Assembly: GCF_000176175.1 (NCBI RefSeq)
Contig: NZ_ACZP01000014.1
Span: forward strand, 62,001 to 126,000
Origin: Vibrio furnissii CIP 102972
GTDB taxonomy: Bacteria; Pseudomonadota; Gammaproteobacteria; Enterobacterales; Vibrionaceae
Reading direction: 5' to 3'
DNA length: 64,000 nt
Shown here: positions 16,486 to 33,117 of the stretch, piece by piece
How positions within the stretch are numbered: the stretch's first letter is position 1
Layout: the number at the start of each line of letters is the position of its first letter
Notes under the pieces: model-generated
What the model was told of the DNA's origin: nothing
Seen by the model: only the letters and a program-made list of their open reading frames with translations
Database searches by the model: none
Translations under genes and position numbers: made by a program

Positions 16486-16737
16486 ATGTTAATCACTTGC
16501 CCTATTTGCGGAAGCAAAGCACGTATTGCGACGTCCAAAGCGATGAGTAACGAAACGCGCGAAGCCTATTGCCAATGTCTGAACCTAAACTGCGGTCGTG
16601 CGTTTACCACGCTGACCACGGTTAACCGCATTATTGAACCGACTGGCGCCAAACCAGACCCAGAACTGCAACCGGAGCTGTGCAAGGGAGATGTGGATCA
16701 GATGGACATCTTCAGTGCCTTTGAGCAAATCCAATAA
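16486..16737 (+). CDS. ogr: Ogr/Delta zinc-finger late-gene activator
   Basis: 83-residue activator of late transcription. The Cys pattern is C5-x2-C8-x22-C31-x4-C36 (TCPICGSKARI...CQCLNLNCGRAF), the Ogr/Delta zinc finger. In P2 it binds upstream of late promoters and contacts the alpha subunit of RNA polymerase. An AGGAGA ribosome-binding site follows the gpA stop. In P2, ogr sits on the other side of attP; here it follows gpA. Confidence 0.93.
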   Translation: MLITCPICGSKARIATSKAMSNETREAYCQCLNLNCGRAFTTLTTVNRIIEPTGAKPDPELQPELCKGDVDQMDIFSAFEQIQ

Positions 16738-16755: not shown

Positions 16756-16986
16756 ATGAAAATTAATGTCATTCCATCACAGCGTCTGAACGCACTATTG
16801 GATGTTCTGCCTCTGCGCGAAATTCCAGAGCAAACAAGATCGGCACTGAGGCTCGTCTTTGAGTCAGGTTATTCATACGAACTCGCGTCCCTGAGAACGG
16901 GCGTATCGAGCAAGCGTATCTCTCTGGCTGCTCGCAAATTAGACCAAATAGATAGGATACTTCTCAAAGCATATAGGTTGTCATGA
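16756..16986 (+). CDS. Small HTH protein, KorA/TrfB-like
   Basis: 76-residue helix-turn-helix protein: PEQTRSALRLVFESGYSYELASLRTGVSSKRISLAARKLDQID. The HTH with conserved spacing resembles KorA/TrfB plasmid repressors. Its stop overlaps the next start (ATGA), so it heads a translationally coupled three-gene unit with the terminase-like and transglutaminase-like genes. It probably autoregulates that unit. Confidence 0.65.
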   Translation: MKINVIPSQRLNALLDVLPLREIPEQTRSALRLVFESGYSYELASLRTGVSSKRISLAARKLDQIDRILLKAYRLS

Positions 16987-17342
16987 TGAACATAGATTCA
17001 ATCGAATTGCACATTTGCAAAAATGCCCTAGTCGACGCGATTCAAACAAAGGAAAATCAGATATTCTTGTCTGCGTCGACAGATGAGAGCGAGAGGATTC
17101 GAGAGCGTATCATTGAGTTGGCGAGCTCGTACGGGCTGACTCTGTCTGGAAACCCGCTTATATTGCCCAATGGTACAACGCTGACGTTCTTACTCCCTAA
17201 CAGCCAAACATCTGCAGGCTATTCAGGAAATGTTTATGTGTTCAACTGCTTTGATGACACTAACTTTTCCTATATAAATGAATTAGTTTCGTCATGGACA
17301 ATGCTCAAGAAACATCGAGCTATATTTTTATCCATTGGCTAA
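16983..17342 (+). CDS. Mini-protein resembling part of the large terminase ATPase
   Basis: 119 residues, no catalytic function expected. Residues 12-118 align with residues about 180-285 of the phage's own large terminase (31357-33117). NQIFLSAS (25-32) matches NQVFLSAS; LPNGTTLTFL matches LSNGATFYFL; TSAGYSGNVYVF matches TSQGFNGHVYF; KKHRAIFLSIG matches KYRTTYLSTP, the coupling-motif region. The Walker B acidic pair (DE in the terminase) is replaced by NC, and the Walker A part is absent. This could be a decoy or regulator of packaging, aimed at this phage or at rivals. Sequence likeness is direct; function is inference. Confidence 0.65.
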   Translation: MMNIDSIELHICKNALVDAIQTKENQIFLSASTDESERIRERIIELASSYGLTLSGNPLILPNGTTLTFLLPNSQTSAGYSGNVYVFNCFDDTNFSYINELVSSWTMLKKHRAIFLSIG

Positions 17343-17379: not shown

Positions 17380-17847
17380 ATGGTCAATATTCAAATCTTG
17401 AGACGCGAAGCACTTAGGCTTCGTACTGCAATGGATTCCTGTGACAAAGATTCCTCTACGATATTGACTAATTCCTTTCCCATCATGAACTGTAAATTCG
17501 CCTCACTGTTGCTCGCTTTTCACTACTTTCAACGTCTAAACAACATAGAAATAACCTGCGTAACGGGTTATGGCGAGAATATGGTTTCACACGTTTGGTT
17601 GGAGATAGAAGAACATGTAGTTGATATTACTGGTGATCAGTTCAACTTGATTGATCATGTTCAACTCAATGAAAAGATACTCAAGTACAGACCTTTCTCC
17701 AAAATCCACGTAACCAAAGTTACTCAGAGTTACTTACCCATAGTGTTCAAAAGAACGGAGAGAATAGGTTTAGACAAAGATTTTTCGGATTTCAAAGCGA
17801 GCTTTATCGACAAAATGAAGTCTTCTTACTCTACCCTAATTGTGTAA
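17380..17847 (+). CDS. Transglutaminase-like cysteine enzyme, phage accessory
   Basis: 155 residues from the ATG at 17380; an in-frame start at 17335 overlaps the previous gene and would add a poor leader. A Cys-His-Asp triad is likely: C38 (IMNCKFASLLLAFH), H71 (VSHVWLEIEEHVVDITGDQF) and D82. The HVWLE...VVDITGDQF region is typical of transglutaminase-like proteins. Last gene of the unit starting at 16756, more AT-rich than its phage neighbours and so probably acquired. The role is unknown. Confidence 0.6.
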   Translation: MVNIQILRREALRLRTAMDSCDKDSSTILTNSFPIMNCKFASLLLAFHYFQRLNNIEITCVTGYGENMVSHVWLEIEEHVVDITGDQFNLIDHVQLNEKILKYRPFSKIHVTKVTQSYLPIVFKRTERIGLDKDFSDFKASFIDKMKSSYSTLIV

Positions 17848-18075: not shown

Positions 18076-18126
18076 TTTCCAGCCTGCTGCCTTCTTTGAT
18101 TTGTTTAAGATGAAGTGAGAGCTTTC

Positions 18127-19317
18127 ATGTGGGAACGACAGTACGAGCGCGGGCGATGGAACGGGCATCAGCTCAACATCCTGGCGACTGCCATTGATGG
18201 CGGCCAGCGCCTGCACGTCAGCGAAATTCCCTACGCCGAACTACCCAACATCCGTGTGATGGGCAGTAAATCCCGCACCATCAAACTCGATGTCGTCTTT
18301 GTCGGCGCCGACTCGCTGGCCGATGCCAACGCATTCATTGCTAACCTGGAGTCTTCCCCTGCCGGAGAGCTGGAGCACCCGTGGCTGGGCGAACTGACGC
18401 TGGTGTTCGACACCTTTTCCCAAAGCATTAGCACCAAGCGCGGTGTGGTCACACTCAGCCTGAGCTTTGTCCGTGCCGGCACGCAGCCGACCATCAACAC
18501 GTCAGCGACCGTTCGGGTGAAGCAACAGGCCAGCGCAGTGGAAAGTGTCTCAGCGCAGTCGTTCGCCCGTGATGTAAAAAGCCTCAGCGTGGCCGACATC
18601 AACCAGACTCAGAACGATTTCACTCAGTCACTCAACGTGTTGGTGGACATCACCCACCGCCTGAACCTCGCCGATGACAAGCTGCAAAGCATCAACTCAG
18701 CCATCAACGAAGCGTTTGGTGCCATCAGCAGCATCAGCAGTGCGCCGGATAAGTTCGCCACGCTGTTGAGCACCGCCGTTGATCGCGTCGCTGAGGGCGT
18801 TCAGTCTGAGCCTGACTCCGACAGTGAGGCCGTCGACAACGCGCGCACTGCGCAGCAGCTGATGTTGGGTCAGGTCAAAGAGGACGCTGTTACCCCTCAT
18901 CACAACATTCAGATGGTGACCGGAGCCGTGAAGGTCAGCAAAGATGTCACCCGTTTGGAGAAGCAGGACCAGTTTGATATCACTGCCGTGAGCAAACAGC
19001 CAGCCATCATTCAAAGCGACCTCTCGGCGCTGATTGACGGCATTGATGAACGCGTGACAGAAACAACAAACGTCTCAACGGTTGAGAGCTTAGACATCTT
19101 CGATGCATTGACAGCGCTGAAAGGCGGCATTCAGACGCAGCATGACAAAGTCATCAAGGGTACTGCGGCGCACCGCGTAATTGAGCAGCCGCGCAGCAAA
19201 CCCGCCCTGACCATCGCGCACGACCAGTACACGGCAGAGCCGATCGTTACCGCGATGAATGCGTTGCAGCACCCTCTGTTTCTGCGTGGTGACATTGCCG
19301 TGAGGAACCCGCAATGA
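18127..19317 (+). CDS. Mu gpN-like DNA circularisation/tail protein
   Basis: 396 residues from MWERQYERGRW. The N-terminal domain (WERQYERGRWNGHQLNILATAIDGGQRL...ELPNIRVMGSKSRTIKLDVVFVGADSLADANAF) is the DNA circularisation N-domain of Mu gpN-type tail proteins. First gene of the second half of the Mu-like tail operon, overlapping the next gene by 4 bp. In Mu it directly follows the tape measure; here integration and replication genes intervene. Confidence 0.85.
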   Translation: MWERQYERGRWNGHQLNILATAIDGGQRLHVSEIPYAELPNIRVMGSKSRTIKLDVVFVGADSLADANAFIANLESSPAGELEHPWLGELTLVFDTFSQSISTKRGVVTLSLSFVRAGTQPTINTSATVRVKQQASAVESVSAQSFARDVKSLSVADINQTQNDFTQSLNVLVDITHRLNLADDKLQSINSAINEAFGAISSISSAPDKFATLLSTAVDRVAEGVQSEPDSDSEAVDNARTAQQLMLGQVKEDAVTPHHNIQMVTGAVKVSKDVTRLEKQDQFDITAVSKQPAIIQSDLSALIDGIDERVTETTNVSTVESLDIFDALTALKGGIQTQHDKVIKGTAAHRVIEQPRSKPALTIAHDQYTAEPIVTAMNALQHPLFLRGDIAVRNPQ

Positions 19318-25752: not shown

Positions 25753-26204
25753 TCTTGTTTCTTTCCTTGTACGGATTCTTGTCCACGATTGGTATGATAC
25801 CAATAGATTTGTCGGCTGGTTCGTCTAGCCATAATAAATTCAACTTTTGTTTGGTTTACGGTAAGGCAGCATGACATTTGATAGTGACAGTCGTGCGAAC
25901 CTCAAAATACTTCGATAAAAAATGTATAGGGATACTTAAGCTATTTGATGGAATATAAAGAGAAAGTAATCGCAGGTATGTGACGAAAGGATTCGAAAAG
26001 ATACAGGGAAGAGACTTGAACTTGATGTTACATGAATAGCTCATATTTTATGAGCAAGGCACACTATACACGCAACAAACTAAATAGATAGTTTTTTCTT
26101 AGGGCATAACCATCCATAAACGTGGTGATAGCGTAAGCTCTGCTCTGGATGAATACAACTCCACGCCACAAAAGCCTACGCGATCTATGTCTCGAACATC
26201 AACT

Positions 26205-26605
26205 TTGGGTATGCAAAGAACTGGTCTACGCCTACGCGATGTGGATTAGCGCCAGGTTTCACCTGCAAGTCATCCGCGCATTCGACGCAATCACAAGCCA
26301 ACCGCAAATTGCACCGTCCGGTGTCACTCTCACCGCCAAACAAGCCCGGCTCTTACAATGTGCCTTTTCGCAGTTTGACGAACTCAAAGCGCCACGGGGA
26401 AAGCTACCGCCAGTATCAAACTATGCAGCAGCAAATCAACATGATGCGTTCGTTTTGCGATCATATGGAAAGCGAGCTTAAAGCGTTTCACTCGCAGGTA
26501 GACGCAGAAATTGATGCGATTAATCACATCAACTTATACAAGGGAATGGTGTTGGAATATCAAGGCGCTGACGAACTAAAGCGCTTCATTGAGCAAAAAC
26601 ATTGA
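26205..26605 (+). pseudogene. Truncated, frameshifted copy of the KilA-N gene
   Basis: From about 26205 to 26605 the DNA is nearly identical to 28466-28869, the 3' two-thirds of the intact KilA-N gene. The 5' part is missing, and GCGC became GC near 26390, so the frame is broken. The same downstream hairpin is present. It is a leftover of a duplication flanking the inverted cassettes. Confidence 0.85.
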
Positions 26606-28251: not shown

Positions 28252-28869
28252 ATGACCCATCTATCTATTCTTTCCAAAGATATCCGCATCTTAGACGGCT
28301 TGTATTCTCTGAATGACCTGCATAAAGCAAGCGGAAACAAAGCCAAACACGCCCCTTTTCGATTCATGCGTAATGAACAAACCGTTGAACTAATCGCTGA
28401 AATAGAGCGATCACCAGATCTGGTGATCGGTTGCAAAGTGTTACGAGGTGGGAAACTCCAAGGAACTTGGGTATGCAAAGAACTGGTCTACGCCTACGCG
28501 ATGTGGATTAGCGCCAGGTTTCACCTGCAAGTCATCCGCGCGTTCGACGCACTCACAAGCCAACCGCAAATTGCACCATCCGGTGTCACTCTTACCGCCA
28601 AACAAGCCCGATTCTTACAATGTGCCTTTTCGCAGTTTGACGAACTCAAAGCGCGCCACGGGGAAAGCTACCGCCAGTATCAAACCATGCAGCAGCAAAT
28701 CAACATGATGCGTTCGTTTTGCGATCATATGGAAAGCGAGCTTAAAGCGTTTCGCTCGCAGGTAGATGCGGAAGTTGATGCGATTAACCACATCAACTTA
28801 TACAAAGGGATGGTGTTGGAATATCAAGGCGCCGACGAACTAAAGCGCTTCATAGAGCAAAAACATTGA
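28252..28869 (+). CDS. KilA-N domain phage regulatory protein
   Basis: 205 residues. The KilA-N DNA-binding domain spans about residues 10-100 ([57 protein letters not shown]), followed by a coiled-coil region ([23 protein letters not shown]). GGAGGTCGCT precedes the ATG. Such proteins are common phage antirepressor-like regulators. Intact copy of the broken gene at 26205-26605. Confidence 0.87.
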   Translation: MTHLSILSKDIRILDGLYSLNDLHKASGNKAKHAPFRFMRNEQTVELIAEIERSPDLVIGCKVLRGGKLQGTWVCKELVYAYAMWISARFHLQVIRAFDALTSQPQIAPSGVTLTAKQARFLQCAFSQFDELKARHGESYRQYQTMQQQINMMRSFCDHMESELKAFRSQVDAEVDAINHINLYKGMVLEYQGADELKRFIEQKH

Positions 28870-31356: not shown

Positions 31357-33117
31357 CTAGAAGAACGACACCGTGGTGTCATCCTCACTGTGAATATCAA
31401 TCGGCTCCCAGTGCATCACATGCATCGAAGCCCAGGCCAGGTCAGCGTGCGAGCCCACCTTGCTGCGGTTAGAAATAAAGGTCACCTGATTGCTGGCTTT
31501 GGTGGTCTGCTGGCGAATCATCAAAAAGGAATGCACTAGGTCATCCCATTCGCCGTCGAACTGCAGGCGCCCGTCGTTGATGATTTCGCGCGCCTTGTAC
31601 ACCATCATCCGTTTCACTTCCGGCGAGTAATCCAGCTCAATCAGGCTCGGGTAGAACTTGCGCACCAGCTCGGCCACCGCCGACCCGACGCCGCTGACAT
31701 CAATCGCCAGGTGCACCACGTTGTATTTTTCGGTCATGGCTTTAATCGCGAGCGCTTGCTGCTCGTAGCTGGAGCCTTTCAGGCGCGCCCGTTCAATCAG
31801 CCGGAACACGCCGCCTTTGCGTTTGGGTTTGAGCGCAACCACCAATCCGGCATCGTCGGACCCTTCGCCCTGACCGCCGCCGCGCGGGTCATAACCCACC
31901 AACACTTCGGCATTGCCCGCAGGCCGCGCTTTGTTGTGGTCCACGTCCTTCCACAGCGATGAATCGGTTTTACACGCCAGCAGCGCTTTGAGCGCAAAGA
32001 TGGACGCCGAATCATCGAGAAACACGCAACGCAGCAGGTTGTCGAATACGGTTTTGTCCGGGTACTTACGGCGCAGTTTCTCCATGTTGAAGAACGTGGC
32101 GCCTTTCTCAATCGCGTCATCAATGGTGATGATCTGGCGGAAAATGCCATCAACGCCCAGCGAGCCGTTCTTAAGCGCCGAATGGCTGATGTCAATGCCT
32201 TGCTCTTTCTTGCCCTGCCACTTCGGATACGCTTCATGCGCCACGGTCGACGGCGTCGACAAATACGTGGTGCGGTACTTGTCGTGAATCGACATCCCGC
32301 CCGCGTAATCGTCCAGCTCACCAAATTTGGGGATCCAGAACACTTCATCGAAATAGACATGGCCGTTGAAGCCCTGCGATGTGCGGGCGTTGGTGGAGAG
32401 GAAGTAAAACGTCGCGCCGTTGGAGAGTTGCAGCTCATCTTTGCCTTTGAGCTCCACGTCGCCAATCTCCAGCGCGAAACGGCGGATGTAGTTTTTGAAG
32501 ATCTCAGACTGTTTGCGCGAGGCCGACAAAAACACCTGGTTGTCGTCGTTCAGTACCGCATCCTCAAACGCTTCATAGGCGAAGTAATACGTCAGGCCAA
32601 TCTGGCGCGATTTGAGGTAGAAGCGGAACTCGTTCAGTTCGGGATTGCACTTGTGGGCGTGGATGTCTTTCTGGTACTCGAAAAACGTCTTCTCTCGAAA
32701 CTCGTCCAGCACCGTTCGGGTGATGTGCGACACGTCGTTCTTCACCTTGTTCGGCTTGCGGCCGCGCTTGTTGCCTTCGCTGTGGCTGCTCGCAGGCCGA
32801 TGCTGCCGGCTCTCGGCTTCATCGCGTTTGCGCTTTTGTGCCAGCAGCATTTCCAGCTCTTTGAGCTGCTCATCGTGCTTTTGGTCAAGCCACAGCAGAT
32901 AGGCAATCCGCTGGCGCAGCATCAGCTCTACGGGCGCATCGTCCCGCATCGCTTTCCAGTCAAATTTCGAAATCCATTGCTGGACGGTTCGCACGGCAAC
33001 GCCCACCGCCTGCGCGACTTCGGCAGGTTTGTACTGACGCAGATACAGCCCAAGCGCTTTGGTTTGGTCTGCAGTGTACATCGGGGAGGATTGCTCAATA
33101 GCCAGATTCGTTTTCAT
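31357..33117 (-). CDS. Large terminase subunit (P2 gpP family)
   Basis: 586 residues from the ATG at 33117 (33132 and 33081 are alternatives). The N-terminal HTH is KPAEVAQAVGVAVRTVQQWISKFDW. ATPase: Walker A-like KSRQIGLTYYFA (169-180), Walker B HVYFDEVFW (D257, E258), coupling motif YLSTP. The nuclease half includes VGYDPRGGG and AIDVSGVGSAVAEL. Cuts cos and drives DNA packaging. First gene of the leftward PQ operon, divergent from the capsid genes. Confidence 0.94.
   Translation of the reverse strand: MKTNLAIEQSSPMYTADQTKALGLYLRQYKPAEVAQAVGVAVRTVQQWISKFDWKAMRDDAPVELMLRQRIAYLLWLDQKHDEQLKELEMLLAQKRKRDEAESRQHRPASSHSEGNKRGRKPNKVKNDVSHITRTVLDEFREKTFFEYQKDIHAHKCNPELNEFRFYLKSRQIGLTYYFAYEAFEDAVLNDDNQVFLSASRKQSEIFKNYIRRFALEIGDVELKGKDELQLSNGATFYFLSTNARTSQGFNGHVYFDEVFWIPKFGELDDYAGGMSIHDKYRTTYLSTPSTVAHEAYPKWQGKKEQGIDISHSALKNGSLGVDGIFRQIITIDDAIEKGATFFNMEKLRRKYPDKTVFDNLLRCVFLDDSASIFALKALLACKTDSSLWKDVDHNKARPAGNAEVLVGYDPRGGGQGEGSDDAGLVVALKPKRKGGVFRLIERARLKGSSYEQQALAIKAMTEKYNVVHLAIDVSGVGSAVAELVRKFYPSLIELDYSPEVKRMMVYKAREIINDGRLQFDGEWDDLVHSFLMIRQQTTKASNQVTFISNRSKVGSHADLAWASMHVMHWEPIDIHSEDDTTVSFF

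Follow-up and report, generated by a model that had tools for sequence, protein, structure and literature searches.

The window, the whole stretch of 64,000 nucleotides from Vibrio furnissii CIP 102972 analysed here (contig NZ_ACZP01000014.1), carries a P2-like phage in which a short gene is found after ogr, the gene of the late activator, and before the tail operon (Table 1). Its product, mini-TerL, is a standalone relative of part of the large terminase (TerL) encoded on the other strand of the same phage. In every context read (the window and loci L004-L009, L039, L054, L055 and L182-L185) the gene stands directly behind ogr, or behind ogr and a small HTH-like gene, and ahead of the tail operon; its start either lies within the end of the upstream gene or comes 9 bases after it. 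A scan for promoters and terminators gave no signal above that of shuffled sequences.

Table 1. Genes and sequence elements discussed in the text, with positions in the window.
Feature	Position	Strand	Remark
Ogr/Delta-like zinc-finger late activator, left slot border	16486..16737	+	Ogr_Delta 57.9 bits, cut-off 26.3
Small HTH-like protein ("KorA-like")	16756..16986	+	Overlaps the mini-TerL start; precedes mini-TerL in some alleles only
Standalone dead TerL-core protein (mini-TerL), 119 aa	16983..17342	+	ATG overlaps the TGA stop of the upstream gene
Codons Phe87-Asn88, opposite the Walker B Asp-Glu	17241..17246	+	D and E in 79/79 TerL rows
Codon Arg112, alpha3-beta4 loop, which in other motors carries the trans-arginine finger (D6E R158, phi29 R146)	17316..17318	+	Putative equivalence
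Transglutaminase/papain-like protein (by eye)	17380..17847	+	Start 17380 chosen from relatives
First gene of the tail operon, right slot border	18115..19317	+	Marks the phage type
Resident large terminase (TerL, P2 gpP-like), 591 aa	31357..33132	-	Pfam and PHROG matches
Resident TerL segment homologous to mini-TerL, aa 188-292	32257..32571	-	Pairwise alignment

The earlier note had described a 119-residue ORF that matches the large terminase of the same phage, and both length and alignment are borne out: mini-TerL and the resident segment share 37/105 identities and 56/105 positives (E 6e-16); the local alignment scores 140, and none of 1000 shuffles exceeds 54. The match persists in profile searches, where mini-TerL scores 35.9 bits with Pfam Terminase_6N (cut-off 22) and matches PHROG 3746 (TerL) at E 2.4e-21. 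Terminase_6C, the C-terminal RNase H-like nuclease domain, is detected by Pfam in the resident TerL and is absent from the 119-residue protein. When the resident TerL is compared by sequence with solved structures, the only matches are TerL chains at E 0.03-0.05 over aa 449-550 and two unrelated proteins.

Eleven distinct standalone alleles occur in P2-like phages of the Vibrionaceae, the other ten being 45-98% identical to that of the window. The window's allele is also found at L005-L007 and in genome G051; the remaining ones are those of L009, L008, G168, G173, L182, L183, L184, L185, G241 and G239. The G168 protein (64%) is the same as a copy on genome contigs of Vibrio sp. RE88. The alleles of G241 (code g3) and G239 (code g2) belong to two further genera of the Vibrionaceae. 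Length, start and place of the gene are the same in all three genera. A search of 329 genomes of the family yielded a standalone copy in six (G000, G051, G168, G173, G239 and G241). Among viral contigs, nine of the 52 loci are standalone (L045-L049, which lie on the contigs of L005-L009, and L182-L185), the remaining 43 being frames of at least 343 aa with TerL-like sequence. Beyond the Vibrionaceae, no intact standalone mini-TerL was found at E <=1e-12 in a sample of 394 genomes of the order, some of them of the family, and a sample of 350 genomes of the class; the small frames met there are a 97-aa frame with an internal stop (G548) and frames of 264 and 249 aa near a full TerL (G373, G675). 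The latter two sites (G373:C6:54544-56288 and G675:C1:19235-20979) combine adjoining TerL-like frames of 592-614 aa and 249-264 aa, possibly partial TerL duplications outside the Vibrionaceae. Searches of phage records gave 328 and 284 matches, of which the best 40 and 60 records were inspected, and plasmid records gave 69 (best 20 inspected); the one hypothetical-protein match examined among the matches listed is part of a full-length gene rather than standalone.

The reading frame is open in all 11 alleles. Synonymous sites are saturated in 27 of the 36 pairs formed by nine alleles, and the proteins still align end to end; for the three pairs whose dS is moderate, dN/dS is 0.11 between the window and L009 (dS 0.065), 0.21 between the window and L008 (dS 0.33) and 0.18 between L182 and L183 (dS 0.44). 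Because these ratios are well below 1 and the proteins remain alignable across saturated synonymous sites, the alleles are under purifying selection and are maintained as proteins. The L008 protein shares its first 86 residues with the window's protein and differs from it thereafter, with 33 of 40 base differences after base 257, which looks like the pattern expected of recombination with another allele. L006 and L008 carry the same IMG genome number (2912581116), that is, two related prophages with two mini-TerL alleles. The ORF is almost certainly a member of a conserved family of dead TerL cores.

Mini-TerL extends from the helix after the P-loop to just past the coupling-motif strand of TerL. 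The helix reads YYFA.EAL.DAI in TerLs and, for example, LYF..KAL.DAI in mini-TerLs. In an alignment of 79 TerL rows (57 of them distinct in the mini-TerL segment) with the 11 alleles, the P-loop block RLKSRQIG, shared by 77-79 of the 79 TerL rows in each column, is gapped or occupied by unlike residues in every mini-TerL; Walker A is thus absent, as had been proposed. The pair opposite the Walker B Asp-Glu had been given as NC; the alignment places FN there and makes the Cys the next residue. The Walker B Asp is Ile, Phe or Met in all 11 alleles, the catalytic Glu is Asn, and the Gln of T-[AS]-Q is Ala, Gly or Ser, although all three are found in 79/79 TerL rows. The coupling-motif end, which the earlier note included in the alignment, is kept in part: the strand and its Ser are kept, whereas the following Thr, present in every TerL row, is lost. 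Seven positions are conserved throughout TerLs and mini-TerLs (Ala15, Ala19, Gln26, Phe28, Gly82, Tyr85 and Ser117), and the residues fixed specifically in mini-TerLs are Asn88 and Trp105 (11/11) and Cys89 (10/11). Homology together with the loss of catalytic residues in all 11 alleles upholds the description of the protein as a dead partial copy of TerL.

One basic position of the motor is retained. The column of Arg112, just before the last strand, holds R in 78 and K in one of the 79 TerL rows, and R in seven and K in four mini-TerLs. According to the available part of the source on D6E TerL, R44 of the P-loop and E143 act in cis within ring-like oligomers, and the residue acting in trans is R158, which lies between alpha3 and beta4 (PMC5727402). 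We infer the equivalence of R112 to D6E R158 from secondary structure alone. Having lost the cis parts but not the basic residue of the alpha3-beta4 loop, mini-TerL would be unable to burn ATP, yet might still face a neighbouring subunit. The position aligned with NARTSQGF was also considered as an arginine finger lost in mini-TerLs and was discarded, since its column varies (R, K, N, S and others) among the TerLs themselves.

The AlphaFold2 models of mini-TerL have a mean pLDDT of 85.3 when the alignment includes TerL rows and of 86.0 when it consists of eight mini-TerLs only, so the predicted fold does not depend on the TerL rows. With VIA-align the model matches D6E TerL first (Z 12.4, rmsd 2.4, 117 residues), followed by the TerLs of Sf6 (11.5), T4, PhiV-1 (8dgc_E, 10.7) and P74-26. 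The first non-terminase chain ties with the last ranked TerL at Z 10.7, which marks the core as the common ASCE arrangement. Foldseek against the PDB places the PhiV-1 TerL of the Avs3 complex (8dgc_E) on top with E 6.4e-4, the sole match below 0.001; it is followed by a helicase domain and then, at ranks 3 to 9, by packaging ATPases of phages (P74-26, HK97, phi28 and phi29). In a viral structure library the matches comprise TerLs alongside proteins that are unnamed, uncharacterised or otherwise ATPase-like. Structure prediction thus yielded no different fold, and the model is closest to solved TerLs, in keeping with a predicted TerL ATPase fold. Mini-TerL resembles gpP of the P2 family (Terminase_6N, PHROG 3746) in ATPase-core homology and in this predicted fold; it differs in being a separate accessory gene that lacks the HTH-like N-terminus, the P-loop, the Walker B acids, the lid and the nuclease domain.

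The site between ogr and the tail operon varies between related phages. The phage type, recognised by its first tail gene, occurs at 28 places in 27 of the 329 family genomes; six places hold a mini-TerL, and a standalone mini-TerL was found only with this phage lineage among the family genomes searched. Nine of the 22 places without one carry SIR2-TPR, restriction-modification, HNH, HicAB or RES genes: SIR2-TPR proteins in four (G154, G203, G031 and G023), an MvaI/BcnI-type restriction-modification pair in G081, a protein with an HNH-effector-like N-terminus in G022, HicAB in G161 and G174, and a RES-domain protein, by Pfam, in G069. Elsewhere the slot holds a patatin-like protein just below the Pfam cut-off (G150), a GTPase (G039), other cargo (G118, G188, G099, G123 and G028) or the HTH-like gene alone (G187 and G019), and it is almost empty in G229, G230, G236 and the second G241 copy. 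PADLOC was run on proteins from 11 of the 22 places and gave clear matches in five (G154, G203, G081, G022 and G161), those to SIR2 reflecting a shared domain and not a whole known system; the slot genes of G031, G023 and G174 were named by resemblance to the scanned ones. The RES, patatin-like and some other slot proteins had no PADLOC match. From its gene content, the slot (loci L111-L133) is a cargo hotspot with frequent defence genes. Defence hotspots of P2-like phages have been placed between gpA and gpQ in E. coli P2-like phages and between cI and the integrase in K139-like Vibrio phages, as far as the available part of that paper describes them (PMC9122126). The ogr-tail slot shares with these that it is a variable site of P2-related phages housing anti-phage systems; by its position it is apparently a distinct hotspot.

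The genes flanking mini-TerL in the slot are not constant. A KorA-like label had been proposed for the small upstream gene; its matches to HTH and sigma-region-4 families fall below the Pfam cut-offs and its best PHROG regulator match has E 0.021, so that the label is weakly supported. The HTH-like gene precedes only some of the standalone alleles. The small HTH-like gene is also seen in slots without mini-TerL (genomes G187, G019 and G031; among loci L114, L123 and L124), so it may be a regulator of the slot rather than a partner of mini-TerL. The downstream gene encodes a protein of about 155-170 aa with the invariant motifs NC (Asn-Cys), SH.W (Ser-His) and D.TGDQ (Asp-x-Thr-Gly-Asp-Gln). 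Judged by eye, its conserved Cys, His and Asp would make it a transglutaminase/papain-like protein; sequence comparison with solved structures returned no match. It follows mini-TerL in the window and at L005-L007, L009, G173, G241, L182 and L184; only part of it remains in L183, and L004, L008, L055 and L185 lack it. A tight two-gene system of mini-TerL and this protein was rejected because of this incomplete linkage. A scan of viral contigs, which reaches close relatives only, found all seven loci of its close subfamily on mini-TerL-carrying contigs, whereas across the 329 family genomes it has matches in 37, of which four lie behind a mini-TerL.

Each of the 11 alleles is on average closer to the TerLs of other Vibrio P2-like phages than to those of its own lineage: mean identity is 35-43% with K139/PV94-type TerLs and 26-34% with resident-type TerLs, the P2/186/Dobby/FLC5 group lying between. 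Nineteen columns are fixed differently in resident-type and K139-type TerLs; of the 209 mini-TerL cells in them, 66 show the K139-type state and 23 the resident one, although the outgroup shares the K139-type state at several of these columns. Trees were built from six of the 11 mini-TerLs over 108 columns, with long mini-TerL branches; the branch that leads to the resident clade is long as well. Under LG+G4 the mini-TerLs (support 100) fall outside the resident clade (support 60). Under a mixture model mini-TerLs and residents are each single-sided (100/100), and a tree joining them is 0.08 log units worse. An AU test does not reject mini-TerLs and resident TerLs as one clade (p 0.488), and descent of mini-TerL from a foreign TerL clade was dropped as a claim on account of these last two values. 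The resemblance to K139-type TerLs is a property of the present sequences that a binding partner would see, and is not proof of origin. Given the AU result, the likeness to the TerLs of other phages may be no more than an outcome of rapid change in the resident clade.

Under our preferred reading, held tentatively, mini-TerL is a dead TerL core which has been domesticated and interferes with packaging motors; the motors concerned would probably belong to competing phages. The protein would have arisen from a large terminase of the P2 family, of whose ATPase core the part between the post-P-loop helix and the coupling-motif strand was retained, and would be made together with Ogr. It could then attach to TerL, either as a dead subunit or as a cap, and block ATP-driven packaging of co-infecting or co-resident P2-like phages with similar TerLs, while the diverged resident TerL would escape. 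Competitors are favoured over the own phage as targets because of the higher mean identity to other Vibrio P2-like TerLs and because of the slot mates, neither of which is decisive; the sharing of the slot with defence genes in several relatives suits a conflict between phages. More doubtful is the sharper version in which mini-TerL acts as a poison in trans on the motors of competing phages' TerLs, much like a virus-derived restriction factor such as Fv1. The traits that would fit such a poison are the loss of the cis-catalytic residues, a retained fold, a trans-finger loop that still has its basic residue, and alleles that have diversified in a slot used by relatives for defence. As to protection of the own phage, by a counter-defence gene or an insensitive target, its TerL is diverged and the neighbours of mini-TerL are not constant between alleles. 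Other observations count against motor interference. The close coupling to ogr suggests expression in the lytic phase, which is less typical of a lysogen's defence, and mini-TerL matches no family of the PADLOC-DB models at E 0.01. The protein may be unable to enter a motor, as it lacks the N-terminal HTH-like domain, the lid and the nuclease domain. K139-type TerLs occur in two of the six mini-TerL-carrying genomes (G168 and G241), and non-resident TerLs (K139-type and similar) in 55 of the 329 family genomes (E <=6e-17, mini-TerLs left out), so there is no sign of exclusion at the level of lysogens; a block of packaging would not prevent lysogeny.

The same lytic-phase expression would suit an anti-defence decoy, in which mini-TerL fills TerL-sensing receptors (Avs-type STAND ATPases) but leaves them inactive, so that the phage encoding it is protected while growing lytically. 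Although the TerL of the Avs3 complex is the first Foldseek match, this ranking is not specific, as D6E and Sf6 TerLs precede 8dgc_E with VIA-align. Avs3 reads the nucleotide-bound active site, and that site is absent from mini-TerL. Avs systems do sense portal and terminase proteins, according to the accessible part of the literature (PMC11364771), and a decoy appears on balance improbable; if true, it would be an anti-defence protein derived from the sensed protein itself. Much the same low credence is given to a repurposed fold, in which the TerL core has become the scaffold or the sensor of a two-gene accessory system whose other member is a new partner, for instance the adjoining transglutaminase/papain-like protein. 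The fixed Asn88, Trp105 and Cys89 exceed what mere inactivation would need, but they may simply fill the space of the missing P-loop; and the restriction of the neighbour's close subfamily to mini-TerL-carrying contigs, which concerns close relatives only, is set against its absence or fragmentation behind several mini-TerLs and the occurrence of its distant relatives away from them.

Regulation of the own phage, with mini-TerL tuning the assembly or timing of the resident TerL, would account for its coupling to the late activator gene and its confinement to this phage lineage, whose TerLs are on average 26-34% identical to it. Mini-TerL is, however, present in only six of the 27 family genomes with the phage type, and every allele is less similar to resident-type than to K139-type TerLs; we regard this explanation as quite unlikely, and as less probable than either the decoy or the repurposed fold. 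That the gene is a functionless, decaying TerL relic or a chance ORF, already disfavoured, is very improbable. Truncation, catalytic death and patchy distribution would be expected of a relic, but not an open frame in all alleles, alignable proteins across saturated pairs, dN/dS well below 1 or identical length, start and place across three genera; an isolated relic or chance match was rejected on the shuffle scores together with the selection on the alleles.

If motor interference is the function, prophage and satellite blocks of assembly or packaging offer precedents to which mini-TerL would be analogous. Tab and Tai are prophage-encoded accessory proteins that stop virion assembly by acting on tails, and Tai genes lie in immunity hotspots in some cases, as described in the available parts of two papers (PMC10884400, PMC11364771). 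Like these, mini-TerL is a prophage accessory gene; Tab, of 83 residues, has by the same text no similarity to proteins of known function, whereas mini-TerL is a copy of part of the motor. No counter-protein to mini-TerL was identified here. Among satellite genes, the portions available of a further source state that Ppi of SaPIs prevents phage packaging through interaction with TerS, and that Ccm is a capsid-protein homologue of the parasite element needed for size redirection (PMC5052747). As far as that source extends, both act through TerS or the capsid and are not derived from TerL, from which mini-TerL differs in being TerL-derived.

The blocking of virion assembly is a recently described form of host protection by prophages, and the blockers met here act on tails, the small terminase or capsids. 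No description of a standalone dead TerL fragment was found among the titles and abstracts listed in searches of open-licence literature, so that poisoning of the motor by mini-TerL, if true, would be the first case of large-terminase mimicry as far as that literature shows. It would amount to a dominant-negative copy of a phage's own machine turned on its relatives, and would provide a natural inhibitor with which to probe the docking of TerL subunits and the sharing of active sites between them. A single gene of 119 aa makes for a simple genetic test of motor mimicry in the competition between phages.

Elsewhere in the window, two ORFs at 26149-26481 (the shorter) and 28252-28869 share a long near-identical stretch and by eye look like a duplicated antirepressor-type gene.
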